In this document: positions 3,731 through 51,897 of the stretch, in pieces
Position numbering within the stretch: the stretch's first letter is position 1
How the letters are laid out: every line of letters starts with the position of its first letter
Notes under the pieces: generated by a model
Told to the model about the DNA's origin: nothing
The model's input: only the letters and a program-made list of their open reading frames with translations
Database searches by the model: none
Position numbers and translations under genes: made by a program
Source: Methanocella paludicola SANAE
Lineage (GTDB): Archaea; Halobacteriota; Methanocellia; Methanocellales; Methanocellaceae
Reading direction: 5' to 3'
NCBI RefSeq assembly: GCF_000011005.1
Contig: NC_013665.1
Location: 2,581,501-2,645,500, forward strand
DNA: 64,000 nt

Positions 3731-3813
3731 GCCAAACCATCCATTATGTTACAGGCCAAACCATCCATTATGTTACAGGCCAAACCATCCATTATGTTAC
3801 AGGCCAAACCATC
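3731..3813. repeat. 24-bp tandem direct repeat, 3 full copies plus a partial
   Basis: Three exact head-to-tail copies of a 24-base unit starting GCCAAACCATCC and ending TTATGTTACAG (3731-3754, 3755-3778, 3779-3802), then a partial fourth at 3803-3813. There is no unique spacer, so it is not CRISPR. It grows out of the 3' end of the structured repeat, whose other copy ends in the related sequence GTGCCTAACCATC near 17261-17273. Confidence 0.9.
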
Positions 3814-3834: not shown

Positions 3835-4245
3835 TTAGAATTTTCTCATGACTTTCAATATACCATCGATGATGGCCTCGGGCTTCGGGGGGCAGCCGGG
3901 TATCTTCACGTCCACGGGGATGATCTTCTCGACGGGCCCGGCGATGGAGTAGTTCTCGTCGTCGATGAAGACTCCGCACGAGGTGCCGCAGGCGCCCATG
4001 GCGATGACCCTCTTGGGCTCCGGGGTCTGGGCGTAGACGCGCTCGAGGAAGGGCTTCGTGTGCAGCGGGACGGGGCCCGTGACGAGCAGGATGTCGGCGT
4101 ACCTGGGCGAGGCTACCCACTTGATGCCGAGCCTCTCCAGGTCGTAGCGAGGGCCCATGCACGCCAGTAGCTCGATGTCGCAGCCGACGCAGCCGCCGGC
4201 GTGCGCGTGGTAGATCCAGGGTGACTTTTTAATGGGGCTGCTCAT
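3835..4245 (-). CDS. group 4 [NiFe]-hydrogenase small subunit (NuoB/HycG-like)
   Basis: Electron-transfer small subunit carrying the proximal [4Fe-4S] cluster of a membrane-bound hydrogenase. The 136-residue protein has the expected ligand pattern: AGGCVGCDIELLA (Cys 19 and 22), GACGTSCGVF, and a late PGCPPKPEAIIDGIL. It lacks the twin-arginine leader and second domain of uptake hydrogenases, which fits group 4. I chose the ATG at 4245 because it overlaps the TGA of the preceding ferredoxin gene (ATGA). It is the last gene of the hydrogenase operon. By homology it sits in the cytoplasm-facing arm next to the catalytic large subunit. Confidence 0.92.
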   Translation of the reverse strand: MSSPIKKSPWIYHAHAGGCVGCDIELLACMGPRYDLERLGIKWVASPRYADILLVTGPVPLHTKPFLERVYAQTPEPKRVIAMGACGTSCGVFIDDENYSIAGPVEKIIPVDVKIPGCPPKPEAIIDGILKVMRKF

Positions 4246-4832
4246 ATGAACTTCCTCGGGTGGGTGTCCCACTCGATGCTGTACTTCCGCCGGCAGTTAA
4301 CGCACACGGTCAAGTATTTTTCCATGTCCTTCTCCACGATGGCGGCGGTCTCCGGCTTCAGGTTTTTCAGGGTCCTATCCCGGACGACGGCCACATACTT
4401 TTCGGTGACGGGCATGTACTCGCCGCAGATGCGGCACTTCTGGAGCTTCAGCTTCGTATCGACCGTGGGCCTGGGCTCCTCCGAGCCGTGAGACAGGCTG
4501 ACTCTCCCGGTGTCGGTCTCGCCCTCCTTCTTAGGCTCAAGGGTAAGCTCAAGCGCCCTCTCCGGGCATACGTCGGCGCAGCGGCCGCAGAAAATACATC
4601 TTAGGCCGTCGATGGATACGGTCCGCTCGCCGTCCGCGTCGGTGAGGCTCGTGGCGCCGCTGGAGCAGCGCTCGTTACAGGCGCCGCATCCGGTGCACAG
4701 GTCCGCGTTCCGCCTGGGCAGCCAGCGGAAGTTCTCGGCAGTAAAGCCGTAGCTCTCGTCGACCGTGACGGGCTTCCGGAAGAAGTTCAGGGCCAGGTCG
4801 CCAAAGGCCTTCAGCTTTCCGACGATGCTCAT
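4242..4832 (-). CDS. hydrogenase 4Fe-4S subunit (NuoI/HycF-like) with C-terminal CxxC pairs
   Basis: Iron-sulfur subunit relaying electrons between the ferredoxin end and the catalytic module. The 196-residue protein has an N-terminal amphipathic region, then two classical 4Fe-4S motifs, CTGCGACNERC near residue 43 and CIFCGRCADVC near 80. An added C-terminal half contains CRICGEY and CVNCRRK, a four-cysteine site that may bind zinc or iron. The start at 4832 (MSIVGKLKAFGDL) overlaps the NuoH-like stop by four bases. The frame is open much further upstream, but that part lies inside the NuoH-like gene in another frame and is not coding. Confidence 0.9.
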   Translation of the reverse strand: MSIVGKLKAFGDLALNFFRKPVTVDESYGFTAENFRWLPRRNADLCTGCGACNERCSSGATSLTDADGERTVSIDGLRCIFCGRCADVCPERALELTLEPKKEGETDTGRVSLSHGSEEPRPTVDTKLKLQKCRICGEYMPVTEKYVAVVRDRTLKNLKPETAAIVEKDMEKYLTVCVNCRRKYSIEWDTHPRKFI

Positions 4833-5758
4833 ATGATATACGCCCCCAAAACGGCCCATCCCACGGCCAGCAGCGATATGAGCGTCGACACCCGGAAGAG
4901 CCACTTCGTGGCCTGGTCGATCCTGAAGCGGGCGAACAGCGCGTTCGTGAACCCGATGGCCGCTCCCACCAGCAGGATGCCGGCGGCGAATATGACCCAT
5001 GACAGCAGCCCGGTCGAGGGCACCCACAGGAATAGGTCGACGAAGAACGCCGAGAGCGTGAACAGCATGATGAGCTTGACGACCTCCAGGGTGCCGAGCA
5101 GCTTGCCGCTGTACTCGGTGGTCAGCCCGCCGACGATCTCCGAGTCCGCCTCGGGGATGTCGAACGGCTTGACGTGCAGCTTCACCAGGATCGCGATGAA
5201 CACGGCCACTGCCGCCAGCGGGTTCACCAGGATGTTGAACCCCATCATATCCCGGATGGACAGCGTATTGTACGTGATGGCCAGGGCGAAGGTTCCAAGG
5301 ATGAAGGGTATCTCGTTGGCCAGCATCAGCTCCACCTCTCTCACGCCGCCCATGGCCGCGAAGAGCGAGGCGCTCGAGATCCCGCCCACGATGATGAAGA
5401 GCGTGACGAATATTAACAGGTAAAATATGACGACGAGGCTGAAGCTGTAGTCGAAGGCGTTCCCCGCCACCGGGACGAACATGGTGACCGAGAGCGCGCA
5501 AATTAGCGCCAGTACCGGGCCCCATGTGAAGAGCGTGGTGGCCGTATGGGGGATGATGGTCTGCTTAGAGAATAATTTGATGATGTCGTATAAAGGCTGC
5601 AGCACCTTGGAGCGGTTAATGTCCTGCCATGCGCCGGGCATCCACAGCAGGGGGCCCCGGCGGGACTGGACGCGGGCGAATATCTTGCGGAGGTTGAACG
5701 CCAGCACGATGCCCACGGCGAACGCGATGAGCGGGTTGAGCCAGGCCAGGTTGATCAC
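4829..5758 (-). CDS. hydrogenase membrane subunit, NuoH/HycD/EchB-like
   Basis: Integral membrane subunit that anchors the hydrogenase and is thought to link redox chemistry to ion movement. The 309 residues form about eight transmembrane helices. Family motifs include the N-terminal loop RKIFARVQSRRGPLLWMPG, the VREVELMLANEIPFILG helix, and the acidic loop KPFDIPEADSEIVGG followed by TEYSGKLLGTLEVVK, all hallmarks of the NuoH quinone-site region. It uses a GTG start that overlaps the stop of the large-subunit gene (GTGA). Acidic residues in the loops are intact, so the subunit looks functional. Confidence 0.92.
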   Translation of the reverse strand: MINLAWLNPLIAFAVGIVLAFNLRKIFARVQSRRGPLLWMPGAWQDINRSKVLQPLYDIIKLFSKQTIIPHTATTLFTWGPVLALICALSVTMFVPVAGNAFDYSFSLVVIFYLLIFVTLFIIVGGISSASLFAAMGGVREVELMLANEIPFILGTFALAITYNTLSIRDMMGFNILVNPLAAVAVFIAILVKLHVKPFDIPEADSEIVGGLTTEYSGKLLGTLEVVKLIMLFTLSAFFVDLFLWVPSTGLLSWVIFAAGILLVGAAIGFTNALFARFRIDQATKWLFRVSTLISLLAVGWAVLGAYII

Positions 5759-7347
5759 TGCCTGCCTCCCGGCGTCCGCTTGTGATCGACAAGCGTCCTC
5801 ATGTCGACAACGCTCTTCTCATTGTTCTTTATGATGGCGACCCGGTCGGTGCAGGAGAAGCAGGGGTCGATGCTCCCGATGATGGCTGGAACGTCGCCCA
5901 CCCAGCCGCCCTGGATGAGCCTGAGCATGATGTGAGCTGTCAGGAACGTCGGCACTCGGATGCGGACGAAGTCAGGGGTGTTAGTGCCGTTGGACGCGAC
6001 GTGGTAGAGCAATTCGCCCCTCGGGGGCTCGCTCTTGGAGATGGCCTCGCCGCACGGCAGCTCGTTGACCTTAGTGGCGAGCCCGGCGGGCGCCGTCTTG
6101 ATCTTTTCGCAGCACTGCTCGGCGATGTGCATGGACATGAGCACTTCCCGCATCTTCACCTTCATCCTGGCCAGGCTGTCGCCGCCGTTCTCCGTCACGA
6201 TGTCCCAGTCGACGTCCTCGTAGGCCTCGTATGGCGAGTTCTTGCGCACGTCGATCCTGAGCCCGCTGCCTCTGGCGGTCGGGCCGACGGCGCCGAGCTT
6301 TACGCTGTTCTCGAGCGAGAGCACGCCCACGTTCTCGAGCCTGCCCACGAGCACGTCGTTCGAGAGCGCCTGGTCGAAGAACTCGGGCACTGACTTTTTC
6401 ATGATCCTGAGCTTGTTCAGTATGAAGTCCGCCTGCGCGGGCGTGATGTCCCGGCGGATGCCGCCAATGGTGATCAGCCCGTGGGTGACCCTCTGGCCGG
6501 ACACGACCTCCAGGCTGTCCTGCATCTCCTCCCTGACGCGGAGCGAATGCATGAGCATAGTGCGGAAGCCGGTCAGGTCGCCGATAAGGCCGACGGCCAG
6601 CAGGTGGCTCTGGATACGCTCCATCTCGCATAATAGCGTCCTGGCCAGCTTCGCCTTCGGGGGAATGTCGATGGAGGCGATATCCTCCACAGACCGGGCA
6701 AAGCTGAGAGCGTGGTGGGAGTTACAGAAGCCGCAAATGCGCTCGGCCAGGAAGATATCCTTGTAATAGTCCCGCCGCTCCATCAGCTTGATCACGCTGC
6801 GGTGGTTGAATCCCAGCTTCAGGTCCACCTTCTTCACTACCTCGTCCTCCACGGACATCTTCAGGAAGTTGCTCTCGATGAACGCGGGGTGGTAGGGGCC
6901 GTAAGGGATGGCGGTGACCGGCAGGGTGACGATGTTGTCCCTGGGCGTGGTCGCCGGGGGCGCCGCGTTGATGCGCTCGGTCTCGTGGTCGGCCTCCGGC
7001 CTGCCGTTCAGGTACATGTCGTCCCAGTTCAGCGGCAGCCACAGGTGAGTGGGGTTCGGGTGGCCCTGCACCTTCACGCCTAAAAATTCGATAAGCTCCC
7101 GCTCCGACCAGTCGGCCTGGTCGGTGATAGGCGTGATCGACTGGACCACGGGGTTCTCCCGGTCCAGGTACGTCCTGAGTATCGTGTGCTCGCTGGGCTC
7201 CTTCATGTCGAAGCAGAAGTAGTAGTTGACCTTGATGCCCCGGACGCCCATGTCCACGCCCGAGGCGTAGATGAGCCGGGCTCCCCGCTTCAGCAGCTCC
7301 GTCACGTTATCGGAGATGGCGTCAGGCCTGATCTCCACGATGTTCAT
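5755..7347 (-). CDS. group 4 [NiFe]-hydrogenase large subunit, NuoC-NuoD fusion (HycE-like)
   Basis: Catalytic subunit of 530 residues: a NuoC-like 30-kDa domain (about 1-130) fused to a NuoD/hydrogenase large-subunit domain, the arrangement of HycE in formate hydrogenlyase. Both Ni-Fe ligand pairs are present: ERICGFCNSHH (Cys 205 and 208) and DPCFSCTDR (Cys 496 and 499), so it should be a true hydrogenase rather than a dehydrogenase-type NuoD. A 28-residue tail follows Arg 502; in HycE an equivalent tail after DPCxSCTDR is removed by the protease HycI. A HycI-like protease gene lies at 51412-51897. It starts with ATG seven bases after the preceding small membrane gene. Confidence 0.94.
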   Translation of the reverse strand: MNIVEIRPDAISDNVTELLKRGARLIYASGVDMGVRGIKVNYYFCFDMKEPSEHTILRTYLDRENPVVQSITPITDQADWSERELIEFLGVKVQGHPNPTHLWLPLNWDDMYLNGRPEADHETERINAAPPATTPRDNIVTLPVTAIPYGPYHPAFIESNFLKMSVEDEVVKKVDLKLGFNHRSVIKLMERRDYYKDIFLAERICGFCNSHHALSFARSVEDIASIDIPPKAKLARTLLCEMERIQSHLLAVGLIGDLTGFRTMLMHSLRVREEMQDSLEVVSGQRVTHGLITIGGIRRDITPAQADFILNKLRIMKKSVPEFFDQALSNDVLVGRLENVGVLSLENSVKLGAVGPTARGSGLRIDVRKNSPYEAYEDVDWDIVTENGGDSLARMKVKMREVLMSMHIAEQCCEKIKTAPAGLATKVNELPCGEAISKSEPPRGELLYHVASNGTNTPDFVRIRVPTFLTAHIMLRLIQGGWVGDVPAIIGSIDPCFSCTDRVAIIKNNEKSVVDMRTLVDHKRTPGGRQ

Positions 7348-7354
7348 CGGGGAC

Positions 7355-7630
7355 TTACTTATCCTTCATCCCCCCGAACGGCGTCTTCGGCCCGTACATC
7401 TCCTTCGTGTTCAGGTATACCTCGTCGGCACCGCAGTTGAAGTTCTCGTCCACGTTCCTGTACTCCGGGAACAGCGAGGGTATGATGACCGAGAAGAATA
7501 TGTAGAACGATACCAGCGAGGCCAGCTCGGCGAACAGGAAGAGCACGATGAGGCCCCAGTCGGCGAAGAATAGCGCGCCAAGCACGCTGGTAACGAGTAT
7601 GAATATGGCTATGATGAAGTATGGCTTCAT
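7355..7630 (-). CDS. small hydrogenase-associated membrane protein
   Basis: A 91-residue protein with two N-terminal transmembrane helices (about residues 4-24 and 27-52) and a soluble tail containing NVDENFNCGADEVYLN. It lies inside the hydrogenase operon between the HdrB-like gene (ATGA overlap) and the large subunit. The two-helix plus NCGAD-type tail resembles the extreme C-terminus of NuoL/EchA-type antiporter subunits, so it may be a detached piece of that subunit whose main body is encoded at 49929-51401. That identity is an inference; it could instead be an unrelated small anchor subunit. Confidence 0.7.
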   Translation of the reverse strand: MKPYFIIAIFILVTSVLGALFFADWGLIVLFLFAELASLVSFYIFFSVIIPSLFPEYRNVDENFNCGADEVYLNTKEMYGPKTPFGGMKDK

Positions 7631-8535
7631 TTCGATTTGATCTCCAGTTTTTCAATGAGCTTATCGACCGGCGCCGTCCGCATGTAGCGCATGCCGAAAT
7701 CGTCCGGCTTAAGGCCGTACGAGATCGCCAGTAGCTCCGCCAGGTGGATGACTGGCACGTCGAAGTTGTACCCGTCCTTCTTTCTCAATGTCGCGATGGC
7801 CCGCTCGAACTGGTCGTAGCACCCCGAGCAGACCAGGACTAATGCGTCCACGTTCTGTTCTTTTATGGCATCGAACTTCCGCTTCGCCCGGTCGTAGGTG
7901 GCGAACTCCCTGTCCGCCAGGTTCGCCTGTAAGCCGCAGCACATGCGCTCCAGGCCGTACGGCACGACCTCGTCAACGAGCGCCTCGTTGAGCTCCGTGA
8001 AGTACTTTACCAGGTGGCCGTCCTGGAAGATGCGCATGTGGCACCCGGGGTGGATGGCAACCTTGATGGGCAGCTTCCGTGCCTCCCTGCGTATTCTATC
8101 GATCCCCACGTCCTCGTAGAGGACTTCGAGCAGGTGGCGAACTCGGATGTTGGCGTCGAAGTGCTTACCAGCGGCGGCGAGGTAGTGGTTGACCTCCTCC
8201 AGCGCCTTCGGGTCCTCGTTGAGGACCTTATTAGCTTCATAAAGCGTGACGTAGCAGCCGTTACAGGAGACCATGACGTCACGGCCAGCCTGCTCGGCCT
8301 GCAATAAATTGTAGGAGGCGAGCGTAAGCCAGACACGCTTATCGACCGATATCCAGACCCCCGCCCTGGGACAGCAGGTGGACTTCGTGAGGTACTCGAT
8401 ATCCACGCCTAGCCGGGGCAGCGTCTTCATGATGGCCGACTCGGCCCAGGGCATCTTCGTGGGCATGACGCAGCCCAGGAAGTGCGAGTATTTCGCCTTA
8501 GCTTTTATGGCCTGTACGGTCGTTTGCTCGTTCAT
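7627..8535 (-). CDS. HdrB-like protein (heterodisulfide reductase subunit B family)
   Basis: A 302-residue protein of two CCG domains, the fold that in HdrB binds two noncubane [4Fe-4S] clusters and reduces the CoM-S-S-CoB heterodisulfide. Both motifs are complete: Cys 22, Cys 54-55 and CNGC at 91-94 in the first domain, and HPGC, MCCG and CSGC in the second. It overlaps the HdrC-like gene by 38 bases and the small membrane gene by four, so it belongs to the hydrogenase operon. No HdrA accompanies it. The sequence supports a disulfide-reducing or other thiol-redox site; the actual substrate is not shown by sequence. Confidence 0.9.
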   Translation of the reverse strand: MNEQTTVQAIKAKAKYSHFLGCVMPTKMPWAESAIMKTLPRLGVDIEYLTKSTCCPRAGVWISVDKRVWLTLASYNLLQAEQAGRDVMVSCNGCYVTLYEANKVLNEDPKALEEVNHYLAAAGKHFDANIRVRHLLEVLYEDVGIDRIRREARKLPIKVAIHPGCHMRIFQDGHLVKYFTELNEALVDEVVPYGLERMCCGLQANLADREFATYDRAKRKFDAIKEQNVDALVLVCSGCYDQFERAIATLRKKDGYNFDVPVIHLAELLAISYGLKPDDFGMRYMRTAPVDKLIEKLEIKSK

Positions 8536-8803
8536 TGAACTTGTACTCCATCTTTTCCAGGTCTAGGCCCATCTTCTTGTCGATATCGAGCGCTTTGACG
8601 ATATTCTGTATGTCCTCCACCGCCTCTTTATATTTATGCGCCGTGGGCGGTATCGGCTCGATGCCCGCCTTCGTCCGGGCTTCTATCAGCTCGTCTGTCA
8701 CCGGGTACAGCAGCCCGATGGAGAAGTGCCGTATAAGCTGGGGCTTCACCGAGGACGGCAGCGGGATCTTTACCGGTCGCCTCCACGGGTATAGTTCCTT
8801 CAT
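8498..8803 (-). CDS. HdrC-like C-terminal domain protein lacking Fe-S ligands
   Basis: A 101-residue protein that matches the C-terminal part of HdrC: IRHFSIGLLYPVTDELIEAR, then GIEPIPPTAHKYKEAVEDI and VKALDIDKKMGLD. Full HdrC is roughly twice this size and carries two [4Fe-4S] clusters at its N-terminus; here there is not a single cysteine. The gene is intact, coupled by ATGA to the upstream four-cluster ferredoxin and overlapping the HdrB-like gene by 38 bases, so this is a designed short form and not a broken gene. It probably docks the HdrB-like protein to the ferredoxin (inference). Confidence 0.75.
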   Translation of the reverse strand: MKELYPWRRPVKIPLPSSVKPQLIRHFSIGLLYPVTDELIEARTKAGIEPIPPTAHKYKEAVEDIQNIVKALDIDKKMGLDLEKMEYKFNERANDRTGHKS

Positions 8804-9243
8804 TTAGTGATACTCCGGATGATCTTCATGCCTTCCTCGCGGGTGACGAACTTGATGGCCTTGGCCGAGCACACCTTGATGCACTCGGGGTCCCCGCCGC
8901 ACATGTCACATTTGGCCATTGCCTTGAGGCCTCTTTGCATTTGCGGTATGGATATGGGGCATGCCCACACGCACGCCTTGCACCCGATGCAGAGCATCTT
9001 GTCGATGGTGACGAAGCCTGTGGCCTCGTCCTTCTTTATCGCCCCGGCGGGGCAGGCGGCCATGCACATCGGGTCCCTGCAGTGCTGGCAGTGGACTCTC
9101 ACGAAGTCGCCGTGCGGGCCGTCGATGACCTTGCAGAGGGAAAGATCGTAATTGTAGGTCTTATAATTCCTAAAAGAACACGCGGTCATGCACTGCCTGC
9201 AGCCGGTGCACAGGCCGGGGTCGTGGACTATTACCTCAGTCAT
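8800..9243 (-). CDS. four-cluster ferredoxin, HycB/CooF-like
   Basis: A 147-residue electron-transfer protein with four 4Fe-4S motifs in order: CTGCRQCMTAC, CQHCRDPMCMAAC, CIGCKACVWAC and CDMCGGDPECIKVC. This is the layout of HycB, HyfA and CooF, which link a redox partner such as formate or CO dehydrogenase to a group 4 hydrogenase. Here the partner encoded next is HdrC/HdrB-like. I chose ATG 9243 over an in-frame GTG at 9264, which would overlap a palindrome next to the predicted transcript start. First gene of the eight-gene hydrogenase operon. Confidence 0.9.
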   Translation of the reverse strand: MTEVIVHDPGLCTGCRQCMTACSFRNYKTYNYDLSLCKVIDGPHGDFVRVHCQHCRDPMCMAACPAGAIKKDEATGFVTIDKMLCIGCKACVWACPISIPQMQRGLKAMAKCDMCGGDPECIKVCSAKAIKFVTREEGMKIIRSITK

Positions 9244-10599: not shown

Positions 10600-11859
10600 T
10601 CATTGCCCGACGGCAGCCTTAGTGCGGGCGGGCTCGCGGTGGCCGTCCTCGTACTTACGGAAGAACCGGAAGTAGAGCACGGCGGCCGCCAGATAGAATA
10701 AACAGGTCGCGGCGTAGGGCAGCAGGTAGGAGCCGTAGGACATGAGGATACCCGCAATAAATGAGCTGACGGCGATGGCGATGTAGTTGCCCATGGAGGT
10801 GAGGCTCGATACCGAGGCCATCTCCTCGCTGTGCACGATCTCCATGGAGAAGCTGTTGCTGATGGGCACGGACATGTTCATGAACAGCATCCTGAGGACG
10901 TAGGCGGCACCTGCGACGTACAGGTTCGTGGATATGGCGAGCACGATGAGGAAGGGTATGGACATCAGGTAGGTCAGCGACACGGTCTTGACCTTCCCGA
11001 TGCGGGAGACCATGAAGGGCACGGCCATTGCGCCCACGGCCATGGAGGCCTGCGCCAGAGCAAAAATAAGGCCTATCTGGCCCGGCGAGGCCGAGAGCAT
11101 CTTGCTGAAGTAAACGTTAAAGAAGGGCACGATGAGGCCCGCGCCAAATCCTATCAAACAACTTATCGTCACCAGCCGCTTCACGACGTTCGACGCTGCC
11201 AGCTCCTTGATCATTGAGCCCAGCTTCGGGGCCTCGACGCAGACCTTCTTTTTCTCCCTGAGGAAGAACAGGGGAATGATGGACACGACGGATACGGCCA
11301 GCGACGCGTAAAGCGTATACCGGAACGAGAGGATGTTACCCCCGTCGACGCCGAACACGGACGACCATACCTGGGGCAGGTATCCGCCGATGGCCATGCC
11401 CATCACCGTGGCCACGACGAACAATGCAAAGTTGAAGCTGAATAAATAGATCCGGTCCTCGGCCGTGCTGTTCTCGACCATGAAGGGCGCGGCGATGATC
11501 GTGGGGACGGTAGAGACGATGCCGCTCAGGAGGCTAAGCAGGAGCAGCCACTCCTGGCCGGTCAGAATATACAGTAAGAACGATACGATGCTCGATAGGA
11601 TGCAGGAGACGAGCAGGCTCTTTTTACTGCCAATTCGGTCGCACACCTGGGCCGCCGGGAAGGCGAACACGCCCGTGGCGATCATGGTGGCCGATATGAT
11701 GAGGCCGAGGAACTGCTCGTTGTACCCGAGCTTGATGATGTATAGGTTAAAGATGACGCTGGCCATTCCCACGTATAATGACGTAAGGAAGCTGAAGGCC
11801 AGGTACATCCTGGCGTTCGTCGAGAAGTTCTTTAGGGCTTGAACGTAATTACTCATCAT
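10600..11859 (-). CDS. MFS transporter (tandem paralogue 3 of 3)
   Basis: A 419-residue major facilitator with about twelve transmembrane helices in two halves and a charged central loop (FFLREKKKVCVEAPK). The loop between helices 2 and 3 reads QVCDRIGSKKSLLV, a variant of the MFS GxxxDRxGRR motif, and the equivalent loop in the second half is MVSRIGKVKTVSL. It shares its opening (YVGMASVIFNLYIIKLGY) with the next two genes upstream and is their paralogue. A GGAGGGG Shine-Dalgarno lies about 10 bases before the first of two ATGs. The substrate is unknown; the subfamily resembles drug or sugar efflux carriers. Confidence 0.88.
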   Translation of the reverse strand: MMSNYVQALKNFSTNARMYLAFSFLTSLYVGMASVIFNLYIIKLGYNEQFLGLIISATMIATGVFAFPAAQVCDRIGSKKSLLVSCILSSIVSFLLYILTGQEWLLLLSLLSGIVSTVPTIIAAPFMVENSTAEDRIYLFSFNFALFVVATVMGMAIGGYLPQVWSSVFGVDGGNILSFRYTLYASLAVSVVSIIPLFFLREKKKVCVEAPKLGSMIKELAASNVVKRLVTISCLIGFGAGLIVPFFNVYFSKMLSASPGQIGLIFALAQASMAVGAMAVPFMVSRIGKVKTVSLTYLMSIPFLIVLAISTNLYVAGAAYVLRMLFMNMSVPISNSFSMEIVHSEEMASVSSLTSMGNYIAIAVSSFIAGILMSYGSYLLPYAATCLFYLAAAVLYFRFFRKYEDGHREPARTKAAVGQ

Positions 11860-11991
11860 CCGGGCATCCCCTCCTTTCTAAAGGTTTAAAATAATTCCAA
11901 ATAAAGATAGTTTGTGGTTTTTTCGGCTCATTACGTGCCTTATCATGGTTTTGGGCAGCTTATATCGTCCGCTTTCCATGCGCCACCCCTC

Positions 11992-13263
11992 CTACTCCGG
12001 GTCCACGACGGCCGTACAGGCGGCCTTCGGGATGGGCGTGGCCATCATCAGGGGACGCTCCACGTCCCTGAAGTAGTAGTACAGGAGCGCGGCCGTGATG
12101 AGGTAGAAGGCGCAGGTCGCGATGAACGGCAGGATGTAGTTGCCTCCGGCGATCAGCAGGCCGCTTACCAGGGTGCTGGCGGACACGGCCACGTAGTTCC
12201 CGGTCATCATCATGCCCACGGCGAAGCCCTGCTCCTCCCTCTTTATCTGCTCCATCTGGAAGCTCGTCGTGGCGGGGCCCGCCATGTTGATGAAGAACAT
12301 GTAGGCCACGTAGGCGCCGGCGGCGGCCAGGAAGCTCTTCGTGAGCGCCAGCCCCATCAGGAAGGGGGCTGCCAGTATCTTCGTCGCCACGGCGGTCCTT
12401 ATCTTGCCCATCTTCGAGGTGAGGTAGGGCGTGACGATGAACCCGAGGATCATGACGCCCCCTGCGACCGCCGATATTATGCCGACGTCGAGCACGCTCA
12501 TGTGGAGCGACTGGGTGAAGTAGACGTTAAAGTAGGGGACGATCATGCCCGAGGCGACGCCGAAGGTCAGGCTCGTGAGCGTGAATTTTAAAATGTCCGG
12601 CGAGAGCCGGATGTCCTTGAGCGAGAAGGTCGAGCAGTGGCATTTCGGGGCGGCCTTGTTCTCCCTGACCAGGACCATCACGGCAAGGCCCATCACGAGC
12701 AGTGAGACGGCCGAGAGCAGCGTCAGCCGGAAGCTGTCGACCTGAAGCCCGGCGAACGTGCCCCACAATCCTGGCGCGACCCCGCCCAGCGCGCAGCCCA
12801 ATATCGACGCGATCCAGCTTATGGAGGAGTTGGCGCTGAACACGTGCACCGTGTCGTCCTTCCTGCAGTTCTCCGCCAGGAGGGGCGTCAGCGTCACGGA
12901 GCTTATCGAGACGAACACGCCTCCGGCGATGCTGAAGAAGATCAACGCCCAGGGGGAGGAGAACAGGTACAGGGGCACGGCTGCCAGCGTGGAGAACAGG
13001 CCGGAGATGATCATGAGCTTCCTCTTGTCGAAGCGGTCGCAGAGGATGCCCGCCGGTATGGACATGGCGGAGGACGCCAGCACGTGCGTCGAGAGCACCA
13101 GCCCGAGGAAATCGGCCCCGTAACCCAGGTTCAGTATGTACAGGTTGAACAGGATGCCGTATATGCCCGTGTACAGGCAGATCAGGAAACTGCGCAGCAA
13201 CAGCAGCTTCACGTTCTTATGGAAGCCGCAGATCGTGCGAACGTACTCTTTTAAGATATCCAT
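11992..13263 (-). CDS. MFS transporter (tandem paralogue 2 of 3)
   Basis: A 423-residue MFS carrier with about twelve helices. The N-terminal half includes YTGIYGILFNLYILNLGYG and GILCDRFDKRKLMI; a cysteine/histidine cluster (PKCHCSTF) marks the central loop; the second half has YLTSKMGKIRTAVA. It is most like the 13291-14514 protein, sharing CDRFDKRK/CDRFNKRK and LLAENCRKD/LLTENCERD. A purine-rich GAGGGGGT lies directly before the ATG at 13263. The three genes point the same way with gaps of 27 and 132 bases, so this one and the upstream paralogue may form an operon. Substrate unknown. Confidence 0.88.
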   Translation of the reverse strand: MDILKEYVRTICGFHKNVKLLLLRSFLICLYTGIYGILFNLYILNLGYGADFLGLVLSTHVLASSAMSIPAGILCDRFDKRKLMIISGLFSTLAAVPLYLFSSPWALIFFSIAGGVFVSISSVTLTPLLAENCRKDDTVHVFSANSSISWIASILGCALGGVAPGLWGTFAGLQVDSFRLTLLSAVSLLVMGLAVMVLVRENKAAPKCHCSTFSLKDIRLSPDILKFTLTSLTFGVASGMIVPYFNVYFTQSLHMSVLDVGIISAVAGGVMILGFIVTPYLTSKMGKIRTAVATKILAAPFLMGLALTKSFLAAAGAYVAYMFFINMAGPATTSFQMEQIKREEQGFAVGMMMTGNYVAVSASTLVSGLLIAGGNYILPFIATCAFYLITAALLYYYFRDVERPLMMATPIPKAACTAVVDPE

Positions 13264-13290
13264 ACCCCCTCGACTGTAAGTATCAAGCTT

Positions 13291-14514
13291 TCACGCGGAG
13301 AGTTTATATCTTTGTGCCTGTTCCACGATGGCGCTGTCAGGCGATCTCTCGGCGCCCCTGAAGTAGCGGTAGAGGAGGCAGGCCGCGAGGACGTAGGCGA
13401 CGCACGTCGCGGCGTAAGGGACCAGGTAGTTCCCCTGCGCCATGAACAGGCCGCCCAGGTACGTGGCCGCCGCGACCACGATGCCGCTCACCGTGGACAT
13501 GAACCCGATGGCGAAGCCCCTCTCATCCGGGTCTATCATCTCCATCTGCAGGCTGGTGAGCGCCGGCCCGCCCAGGTTCATCAAGAACATCCTTGACGTG
13601 TAGGCGAAAGAGCCGACCATGAAGTTCGTGGTCAGCGCCATTAAGATCAAGAACGGTATGGACGCCATCTGCGTAAGCGTGGTGGCCCGCACCTTTCCCA
13701 GCCAGGAGGAGATGCGGGGCGTGATGGCGAACCCTACGACCATGAGCGCGTTGGTCACGGCGAACACGATGCCGATCTCCGAGGGCCCGGCGCCCAGCAC
13801 TTTCACGAAGTAGATGTTGAAGTAGGACACGATGGCGCCGGTGCCCACGCCGGTGAGGGCGCTGATGAGCGTGAACCTGAGCAGGTTCGGCGAGAACTGT
13901 ATCTTGAGCGGCTTTCGCCTCGAAGGGGCCGGCTTCCCGTCCTTCATGAGCAGGAGCATGGACCATCCGGCGAGGAGCAGCCCGAGGGCAAGGAGCATGG
14001 CCATCCTGTACTGCCCGGCGCCCGGAAGCAGCCGCATGATGATACCCGGCATTATGCCGCCGGCCGTGCACCCGACGATGGACGCCATCCAGCTGAACGC
14101 GGAGTTCATGCTGAAGATGCGGACCGTGTCCCTCTCGCAGTTCTCCGTGAGCAGCGGCGTGGCGCACACGGCGCCCACGGACCCGCACAATCCTCCCAGG
14201 GCGCTGAAGAACAGCAGCACCGCCGGCGAGCTGGTGAGGAACAACGGCACCAGGGAGAAGAAGGACAGCAAGCTGAAGAGCAGCATCATCTTCCGCTTGT
14301 TGAAGCGGTCGCAGAGTATGCCTGCCGGCACTGAGGCTATCGACGAGGTCAGCAGGCTGACGGCCAGCATCGTCCCCAGGAAGTCCTCGTGGAACCCCAG
14401 GTCGAGAATGTAAAGGTTAAAAATGACGTCGTAGATGCCCGTGTATACGCTCAGGATGAACGAGCGGATGATGAAGAGCCTGACGTTCCTCTGTAGTATG
14501 CCGGTAATGGTCAC
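13291..14514 (-). CDS. MFS transporter (tandem paralogue 1 of 3)
   Basis: A 407-residue MFS carrier, first of three tandem paralogues. It begins with GTG (MTITGILQRNVRLFIIRS), preceded by GGAGGG at a short spacing. Motifs mirror its neighbours: YTGIYDVIFNLYILDLGF, AGILCDRFNKRKMMLLF, TPLLTENCERDTVRIFS and, in the second half, RISSWLGKVRATTL. About twelve helices are predicted by eye. A 205-base AT-rich gap upstream, shared divergently with the DUF1328 gene, probably holds its promoter. No regulator or biosynthetic gene adjoins it, so the substrate cannot be inferred. Confidence 0.88.
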   Translation of the reverse strand: MTITGILQRNVRLFIIRSFILSVYTGIYDVIFNLYILDLGFHEDFLGTMLAVSLLTSSIASVPAGILCDRFNKRKMMLLFSLLSFFSLVPLFLTSSPAVLLFFSALGGLCGSVGAVCATPLLTENCERDTVRIFSMNSAFSWMASIVGCTAGGIMPGIIMRLLPGAGQYRMAMLLALGLLLAGWSMLLLMKDGKPAPSRRKPLKIQFSPNLLRFTLISALTGVGTGAIVSYFNIYFVKVLGAGPSEIGIVFAVTNALMVVGFAITPRISSWLGKVRATTLTQMASIPFLILMALTTNFMVGSFAYTSRMFLMNLGGPALTSLQMEMIDPDERGFAIGFMSTVSGIVVAAATYLGGLFMAQGNYLVPYAATCVAYVLAACLLYRYFRGAERSPDSAIVEQAQRYKLSA

Positions 14515-49928: not shown

Positions 49929-51401
49929 ATGTACGAGTACCTGGCGCTTGTTCCTATTATACTGCCCATCGCTGGAGCCCTGCTCACGTACGTGCTGGGA
50001 AGGTACTCGGAAAAGCTCCAGGACATCTTCATCGTGGCCTTCGCCGCCCTGCTTTTCGTGTTCAACGCCTCGTATTTCGTGGCCCTCAGGGAGGGAATAC
50101 TGAGGCCCGTGACTTACGGGTTCATGGTGCTCGACGCGCCCGGCATCTTCATCGGCACGCTGGTCGCGTTCATCGGGACGCTGGTCGTCTTCTACTCGTT
50201 CGTATACAAGGACAGGACGCACTACGATAACACGTACTTCATCATGTATTTCCTGCTCATGGGCATGATGAGCGGCCTGGCGAGCACCTACAACGTCATC
50301 GTGATGCTCATCTTCCTGGAGGCCGCCACGGTCATCAGCGCCGTCCTCATACTGTTCGGCCGCACCAAGAAAGCGATCCGGGCGACCTACGTGTACCTGG
50401 CCATCAGCATCGTCGAAGTGATACTCGTCGTTACGGGCGCCTTCATCCTCTACAACGACGCGGGCACGCTGGACCTCAATAAATTAACGGCAGGCGCCGT
50501 AAGCGAAGGGGACATGTTCCTGCTGGCCATGCTCTTCTTCTTCGGCTTCGGCACCAAGGCAGGGCTGTTGCCCCTGGGCATCATCTGGCTCCCGTCCGCG
50601 CACTCCGAGGCGCCGCCCCCGATCAGCGCCACCATGTCGGGCATACTCATCAAGGCGAGCGTCGTGGCCATGGTCAAGGCCATCTACCCGTTCTACCTCA
50701 TATCGGGAGTTGAGACGCTCATCCTGGTCGTGATCGGGTTCGGGGTCCTGAACATGCTCGTGGGCGTAATCATGGCCCTGCTATCCGAGGACATTAAGCG
50801 CCTGCTGGCGTTCCACAGCATCAGCCAGATGGGCTACATCATCATGGGCTTCGGGCTGGCCACGCCTGCGGCCGTCTACGGCGCCCTGTTCCATATCACG
50901 AACCACATGCTCTTCAAGGGCTGTTTATTCCTAATTACGGGCGCCCTCATACTGCGGGTCAACACCCGGCAGATCCATAGGATGGGCGGCCTGATGAAGC
51001 AGATGCCCCTCACAGGCCTTTGCTTTTTAATCGCATCACTGGCCATGTCGGGCGTTCCGCTCTTGAACGGCTTCGTCAGTAAAGAGCTGATATACGAGGG
51101 CTCGGTGCAGGCCGGATACCCCGTGCTGTTCTCGGCCTTCGGCCTTGACCTGACCATATTAGGCCTCGTCGGATGGCTCACCAGCATCCTGACCTTCGCC
51201 TGTTTAATTCACGCATTCTACGTGATGTTCCTGGGCAAGCCGAAGGAAGAGTTCAAGGACGTGAAGGAGCCTCCCCTGTATATGTTGCTGCCCATACTGA
51301 TCATGGCGGGGCTATGTATCGTCATAGGCGTGTACCCGGACCTGGTCTCCGGCGCCCTGGAGTTCGCCGCCGACGCGCTTCTTGCGCTTACGCACTTATG
51401 A
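49929..51401 (+). CDS. proton-conducting antiporter-like membrane subunit (NuoL/M/HycC family)
   Basis: A 490-residue integral membrane protein with about 14 helices of the complex I/Mrp antiporter family. The conserved lysine/glutamate helices are visible: VMLIFLEAATVISAVLIL (TM5 Glu), FGFGTKAGLLPLGIIWLPSA with HSEAPPPISATMSG (TM7 Lys and loop), LLAFHSISQMGYIIMGFGLA, HITNHMLFKGCLFLITGA (Lys) and PLLNGFVSKELIYEG. Such subunits pump H+ or Na+ in group 4 hydrogenases. No hydrogenase core genes adjoin it, but a HycI-type protease gene follows by 10 bases, and the hydrogenase operon at 3835-9243 lacks a full antiporter subunit, so it probably belongs to that complex. Confidence 0.9.
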   Translation: MYEYLALVPIILPIAGALLTYVLGRYSEKLQDIFIVAFAALLFVFNASYFVALREGILRPVTYGFMVLDAPGIFIGTLVAFIGTLVVFYSFVYKDRTHYDNTYFIMYFLLMGMMSGLASTYNVIVMLIFLEAATVISAVLILFGRTKKAIRATYVYLAISIVEVILVVTGAFILYNDAGTLDLNKLTAGAVSEGDMFLLAMLFFFGFGTKAGLLPLGIIWLPSAHSEAPPPISATMSGILIKASVVAMVKAIYPFYLISGVETLILVVIGFGVLNMLVGVIMALLSEDIKRLLAFHSISQMGYIIMGFGLATPAAVYGALFHITNHMLFKGCLFLITGALILRVNTRQIHRMGGLMKQMPLTGLCFLIASLAMSGVPLLNGFVSKELIYEGSVQAGYPVLFSAFGLDLTILGLVGWLTSILTFACLIHAFYVMFLGKPKEEFKDVKEPPLYMLLPILIMAGLCIVIGVYPDLVSGALEFAADALLALTHL

Positions 51402-51411
51402 CCGGAGGAGA

Positions 51412-51897
51412 ATGTACCCGGCACTACAGAAAGAGCTAGAGGAAAGACTTCGAGGGATATCGCCCGAAAGAGTCGTCTTTGTCGGCGTGGGCAACCGCAT
51501 GAGGGGCGACGATGCGATAGGGCCGGCGCTCATCGACCACATCAAGGACGAAGTGCCCCATGCCATCGACGCGGACGGAGTCCCCGAGAACGTGACGGCC
51601 TCTATCAGGCGGCTCAACCCGAAAGTCATCATCTTCTTAGACGCGGCCAGCCTGGGGGAAGCCCCGGGAAGCGCCAGGATCGTGGAGGCGGGCGAAATGC
51701 AAAAGCTCGAGTCCAGCGTCCACAATTTTTCGCTCGACGTCGTCATGGAATACCTGGAGGCCGCGGCGGGCGCCGACGTGTTCCTGGTGGGCGTGCAGCC
51801 GGAAAGGATCGGCGAGGGCGAGAGCATCTCTCAGGAGTTAAAAAAGCCGCTTGAGGATATCGCCTCTATCCTGATAAGTGCAATAAAAAAGGGCTAG
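51412..51897 (+). CDS. hydrogenase maturation protease, HycI-like
   Basis: Endopeptidase that removes the C-terminal tail of a hydrogenase large subunit after nickel insertion. The 161-residue protein has VVFVGVGNRMRGDDAIGPAL near residue 20 (Asp/Glu nickel ligands in the GNxxxGDD motif), AIDADGVPENVTASIRRL, KVIIFLDAASLGEAPGSARI, VHNFSLDVVMEYL (His) and VFLVGVQPERIG, matching HycI more than HyaD or HupD. ATG 51412 follows GGAGGAGA. It overlaps the convergent acylphosphatase gene by four bases (CTAG). Confidence 0.92.
   Translation: MYPALQKELEERLRGISPERVVFVGVGNRMRGDDAIGPALIDHIKDEVPHAIDADGVPENVTASIRRLNPKVIIFLDAASLGEAPGSARIVEAGEMQKLESSVHNFSLDVVMEYLEAAAGADVFLVGVQPERIGEGESISQELKKPLEDIASILISAIKKG

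Follow-up and report, generated by a model that had tools for sequence, protein, structure and literature searches.

The Drh operon of Methanocella paludicola and an unlinked antiporter as candidate parts of a two-locus H2:heterodisulfide oxidoreductase

How does a [NiFe]-hydrogenase work that carries the heterodisulfide reductase subunit HdrB in place of a dehydrogenase, and could it conserve energy? The question is raised by a 64,000-nucleotide stretch of the genome of Methanocella paludicola SANAE (NC_013665.1, positions 2,581,501 to 2,645,500; from here on the window), in which eight contiguous open reading frames (ORFs), overlapping or nearly so, run on the reverse strand from position 9243 to 3835. 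An arrangement of this kind, HdrB within a group 4 [NiFe]-hydrogenase operon of a Methanocellales genome, is already known: the operon encodes Drh, the 'disulfide-reducing hydrogenase' of Methanocellales, and the passages of PMC6046458 covered here credit Lyu & Lu 2015 with the 'disulfide-reducing hydrogenase (Drh)' in Methanocella. A first-pass annotation of the window, made from the sequence, had proposed a membrane [NiFe]-hydrogenase wired to HdrB without HdrA; this stands as the best reading and is what has been published as Drh. In PMC9723716 (Fig. 4C,G), Drh joins Ehd and Ehe in a set of group 4 hydrogenases that interact with HdrB; because it has no antiporter subunit, the paper argues, it probably builds no ion gradient. 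The accounts of Drh covered in PMC6046458 and PMC9723716 contain no enzyme assay, and the covered passages of the M. paludicola genome paper (PMC3146512) name Ech, Mvh, Vht and Frh, Drh not being among them.

We propose, with modest confidence, that Drh is an ion-pumping, flavin-free oxidoreductase of H2 and the heterodisulfide of coenzymes M and B (CoM-S-S-CoB) that is encoded at two loci, where we infer assembly, substrate, direction and pumping. The fuller claim, that an antiporter gene and a gene for a dedicated protease form a separate pair completing this ion-pumping enzyme, and that the published conclusion of no energy conservation is wrong, appears to us evenly balanced. The additions to what the covered parts of PMC6046458 and PMC9723716 contain are a cluster-free HdrC, the unlinked antiporter with its HycI-type protease, a homolog outside Methanocellales and an exact co-occurrence in five genomes.

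The hydrogenase module and its distribution

The tight reverse-strand operon listed in the first-pass annotation was recovered in full, and Pfam and NCBIfam searches agree on the identities of its subunits, which are encoded in the order HycB-like protein, HdrC-like protein, HdrB, 91-amino-acid membrane protein, NuoCD-type large subunit, NuoH, NuoI and NuoB. The large subunit (5755..7347) matches Complex1_30kDa, 49kDa and NiFeSe_Hases and is the HycE-type NuoC-NuoD fusion predicted earlier, with both CxxC pairs of Ni ligands present (ERICGFC and DPCFSC). HycE of Escherichia coli is its closest solved structure (PDB 7z0s_E), at 31% sequence identity. Like HycE it carries a C-terminal extension, which follows the motif CTDR; in both large subunits of Ech type the sequence ends with DPCIGCFDR instead.

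The remaining hydrogenase subunits follow the same pattern. The NuoH/HycD-like membrane subunit (4829..5758; NADHdh, PF00146) keeps the PFD..EA..E....EYS loop common to NuoH and HycD, the NuoI/HycF-like 2x[4Fe-4S] subunit with a C-terminal Cys4 region (4242..4832) matches the formate hydrogenlyase (FHL) Fe-S subunit family NF009053 as an FHL/Hyf-H-like NuoI and is conserved in relatives, and the NuoB/HycG-like small subunit (3835..4245; Oxidored_q6, PF01058) shares its conserved cluster Cys residues with HycG. The 91-amino-acid protein (7355..7630) has two predicted helices and, across five genomes, retains both Glu35 and the CG...YL tail; it has no family match in Pfam or NCBIfam searches. 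Its structure model is of low confidence (predicted local distance difference test score, pLDDT, 62), with Foldseek matches all at E>6 and hence meaningless. A relationship to NuoK/MrpC, considered for the similar Gly-Glu spacing, was rejected, the profile comparison (E 0.04-0.3) not being significant against a reversed-sequence control (0.07-0.3).

E. coli formate hydrogenlyase (Hyc, FHL-1) resembles Drh in its HycB-type ferredoxin, its HycE-type NuoCD with C-terminal extension, and in HycD, HycF, HycG and HycI, but has FdhF where Drh has HdrB, and its operon includes the antiporter gene hycC. The ORF list and Pfam searches revealed no gene for the formate dehydrogenase partner FdhF in the Drh operon, and none of the eight ORFs encodes an antiporter subunit, though NuoH is present. 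Ech of the same genome is likewise a group 4 enzyme with a core of NuoB-, NuoD-, NuoH- and NuoI-type subunits, but it lacks the C-terminal extension and HdrB, has its own antiporter, EchA, and falls into a separate clade.

The four Methanocellales genomes, which represent three genera, share all eight genes in identical order, more than chance would give, and the proteins are 52-93% identical. We searched 394 Halobacteriota genomes, a sample of the phylum in which absence from incomplete genomes is uncertain. A large-subunit profile scored above 1,040 bits in the four Methanocellales, 521 in G053, a genome of another class that is 61% complete, and at most 372 elsewhere; six sister genomes of G053 lacked the Drh large subunit in the profile search. 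Drh-type HdrB at E<=1e-75 was confined to the same five genomes. In a tree of NuoCD these five form a clade of their own, separate from Ech, with support 100/99 and G053 as sister to Methanocellales. A contig scan with the large-subunit alignment matched one Methanocella metagenome-assembled genome (MAG); that only one was recovered is due to the narrowness of the peptide patterns. As regards genomic context, three of the four Methanocellales (L018, L019, L020) have the Drh operon near a soluble MvhAG-type hydrogenase locus and oriented divergently from it, which is not so in M. paludicola.

The disulfide-reducing arm and its substrate

The HycB/CooF-like ferredoxin subunit (8800..9243, 147 amino acids; Fer4 families) has four [4Fe-4S] motifs, as had been predicted, and its 16 cluster Cys residues are invariant across Methanocellales, G053 and E. 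coli HycB; its PDB matches include FHL subunit 2. In HdrC, two [4Fe-4S] clusters normally connect HdrA to HdrB. The HdrC-like domain noted earlier (8498..8803, 101 amino acids) is indeed homologous to HdrC, but corresponds to its C-terminal third only, matching positions 95-143 of TIGR03290 and residues 127-181 of PDB 8rvu_c (E=5e-9), and cysteine is absent from all five homologs, the four further ones being about 90 amino acids long. The structure model of this remnant is of low confidence (pLDDT 51). Since both [4Fe-4S] clusters are absent, the four-cluster HycB-like subunit would have to wire straight to HdrB, and the loss argues against a hidden HdrA partner.

HdrB itself (7627..8535, 302 amino acids; PF02754, TIGR03288) is full length, in line with the first-pass annotation: in an alignment with its G053 homolog all ten Cys residues of the two CCG motifs are kept. 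Its best PDB match is 5odc_B, HdrB of the HdrABC complex (E=1.5e-66). The resemblance to the electron-bifurcating MvhADG-HdrABC complex is confined to this homologous HdrB and to the transfer of electrons from H2 to it; Drh lacks MvhD and HdrA with its flavin adenine dinucleotide, its HdrC remnant is without Cys, and it is a membrane-bound group 4 rather than a soluble group 3c enzyme.

One might suppose that HdrB and the hydrogenase are merely co-transcribed, the hydrogenase using ferredoxin via its HycB-like subunit while HdrB belongs to a separate complex built on HdrA. Further hdrABC sets exist in M. paludicola, according to the covered passages of PMC3146512, as do other HdrB loci, and in G053, by contig evidence, hdrCB does not lie beside the hydrogenase genes: HycB, the 91-amino-acid protein, NuoCD, NuoH, NuoI and NuoB are encoded on one contig, HdrC and HdrB on another. 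Against this, the HdrC encoded here has lost both clusters that link HdrB to HdrA, the window ORF list shows no hdrA within the operon or close to it, the gene order is kept in three genera, and HdrB and NuoCD occur together in all five genomes. We regard mere co-transcription as very improbable.

The second contig of G053 also bears on the substrate. There (C107, L138:1198-12175) hdrC-hdrB is located between McrA thioamidation genes (YcaO, TfuA) and hycI, downstream of mtr. This neighbourhood, together with the homology of HdrB, favours CoM-S-S-CoB as the disulfide, and by gene content both lineages that carry Drh are methanogens. The closest solved relatives of the Drh subunit are all methanogen HdrB proteins. 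On the other hand, TIGR03288, the NCBIfam equivalog for CoM-S-S-CoB reductases, has a cut-off of 345.15 bits, and the Drh protein scores 236.5; we therefore term the subunit HdrB-like, and the score counts against the heterodisulfide as substrate. It fits a complex that acts on a different disulfide/thiol couple, or that runs in reverse, with ion influx driving thiol oxidation and H2 being evolved, as do the many oxidoreductases served by HdrB-type CCG proteins and the related Ehe of non-methanogens without CoM/CoB synthesis (PMC9723716). However, the methanogen relatives and lineages, the position of hdrCB among Mtr and McrA-modification genes and the upregulation of Drh of M. conradii in H2-limited syntrophic coculture (PMC6046458) point the other way, rendering a different couple or direction quite unlikely. 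The Mcr-lacking Methanocellales MAG Met12, whose paper reports no Hdr, Ech or Mvh, was rejected as a test of the substrate, the paper giving no word on Drh. Likewise, a formate dehydrogenase as partner in G053, considered because MoeA genes neighbour those of the hydrogenase and of the antiporter on their contigs, was dropped once the Drh-type HdrB had been found on another contig.

The favoured mechanism is that of a [NiFe]-hydrogenase of group 4, formate-hydrogenlyase type, in which HdrB has probably taken the place of the dehydrogenase arm. H2 would be oxidised at the NuoCD subunit. The clusters of NuoB, NuoI and the HycB-like protein, the last with four of them, would relay the electrons to HdrB, whose two noncubane clusters would reduce a disulfide, most likely CoM-S-S-CoB. 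HdrA, flavin, cytochrome and methanophenazine would all be dispensable, the cluster-free HdrC remnant may do no more than dock HdrB, and NuoH and the 91-amino-acid protein would anchor the complex in the membrane. Electron transfer from low-pressure H2 to the heterodisulfide (about -140 mV) provides energy for one or two ions per electron pair.

An unlinked antiporter and a HycI-type protease

The ion pumping that the first-pass annotation had held possible finds no antiporter in the operon itself and is plausible only with an orphan MrpD/NuoM-type antiporter subunit (PF00361, 490 amino acids) encoded on the forward strand at 49929..51401, about 41 kb from the Drh operon within the window. EchA and this orphan are the only PF00361 proteins of M. 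paludicola, which has no match to PF00420 (NuoK/MrpC-type); Ech is therefore the sole other candidate user seen, and it has its own antiporter. The ion-path residues, Glu in transmembrane helix (TM) 5, Lys in TM7 and Lys in TM12, are present, and among solved structures the protein comes closest to MbhH from the membrane-bound hydrogenase of Pyrococcus. Its counterparts in the three remaining Methanocellales share 60-69% identity with it. Close homologs above 500 bits were found in five of the 394 genomes, the next best scoring 271 bits, and these are exactly the genomes with the Drh large subunit and Drh-type HdrB, namely the four Methanocellales and G053. The antiporter tree again yields a clade of the five with G053 as sister to Methanocellales (support 100/100). 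As four of the five share a family, they count as one event; outside Methanocellales, one Drh genome and one antiporter genome exist among 390, and they are one and the same genome, a coincidence of about 1 in 390.

According to the published reading, Drh would be a membrane-attached H2:heterodisulfide reductase without energy conservation, the orphan antiporter acting independently or with another enzyme. The operon indeed has no antiporter gene, as stated in PMC9723716, and the antiporter lies 41-54 kb away. Yet the antiporter co-occurs exactly with Drh in 5 of 394 genomes, an unrelated lineage included, the PF00361 and PF00420 searches disclosed no other complex in need of an antiporter, and the NuoH loop residues are retained; we consider a non-conserving Drh unlikely. 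Ehd and Ehe (Methanomethylicia/Culexarchaeia), as described in PMC9723716, also combine a group 4 hydrogenase with HdrBC, and their large subunits are reported to cluster with Drh, but their clusters include the antiporter gene, and Ehe also comprises SdhA, CdhA and GcvH. By its co-occurrence in five of five genomes, a matter of gene content, the orphan is a trans-encoded candidate for an Ehd-like pumping complex. In the two-locus architecture proposed here, a new inference with moderate support, the antiporter would complete the membrane arm, and electron transfer from H2 to the heterodisulfide would pump ions.

Directly behind the antiporter gene, in all four Methanocellales, lies a gene for a HycI-type [NiFe]-hydrogenase maturation protease (51412..51897, forward strand; PF01750, TIGR00142). 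The protein scores 100 bits against TIGR00142 (cut-off 119), and agrees with E. coli HycI at the Asp/Asp/His positions. The antiporter-linked HycI type is one of three hydrogenase proteases in each Methanocellales genome, the others being FrhD inside frh and one of HyaD/HupD type. Since a HycE-like C-terminal extension is found on the Drh large subunit and on neither Ech-type one, the HycI-type protease fits Drh, whose large subunit it may process; extension and protease are both present, as in FHL/HycE-type enzymes.

Several points weigh against the two-locus pumping complex. The evidence is genomic and consists of gene content, motifs, conservation and co-occurrence. In Methanocellales the antiporter gene is not linked to the Drh operon, general synteny of the region accounts in part for its pairing with hycI, and G053 is incomplete, its Drh and antiporter genes being spread over three contigs. 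Methanogens that lack Drh can have HycI proteins too (PMC3087415), as do relatives of G053 without Drh, so that the HycI encoded in the window may serve Mvh. These relatives have tfuA and hycI directly adjacent, without hdrCB between them; in G053, hdrCB has been inserted next to a hycI already resident there, and the adjacency of hycI and hdrB, weak evidence that proves little, was downgraded from an independent proof.

Other loci and implications

Other hydrogenase-related genes were noted as well. Outside the window, at about 511-515 kb of contig C1 of the same genome (L021:3447-6976), an EchE-like [NiFe] large subunit, an orphan whose ligands are intact, is encoded after an Mrp/NBP35-type ATPase, and its gene directly overlaps that of methyl-CoM reductase component A2 (TIGR03269, 778 bits); further Ech subunits were not seen at this locus. 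Genome G002 likewise has a second EchE-like copy, which G001 and G003 lack. G001 has a Hyf/Mbh-like operon with two antiporters (L109, C1:760-774 kb), whose large subunit ends in ...NLSYSGNDL and lacks Ni ligands, for which reason the complex is probably not a hydrogenase. Within the window, a perfect 24-bp tandem repeat of 3.5 copies (3731-3813) lies just downstream of the Drh operon, and three tandem paralogous genes for 12-TM transporter-like proteins of about 407-423 amino acids (10600-14514) lie upstream.

The unlinked pair of antiporter and protease genes is the new and testable part of this proposal, and it contradicts what PMC9723716 deduced from the operon. If the proposal is true, Drh would bridge formate hydrogenlyase and heterodisulfide reductase and would be a simple energy-conserving terminal step free of flavin and cytochrome. 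Methanocellales would then have a third route to energy conservation from heterodisulfide reduction, next to soluble flavin bifurcation and the chain of cytochrome and methanophenazine. This bears on how Methanocellales, major methane producers of rice fields, compete at very low H2.

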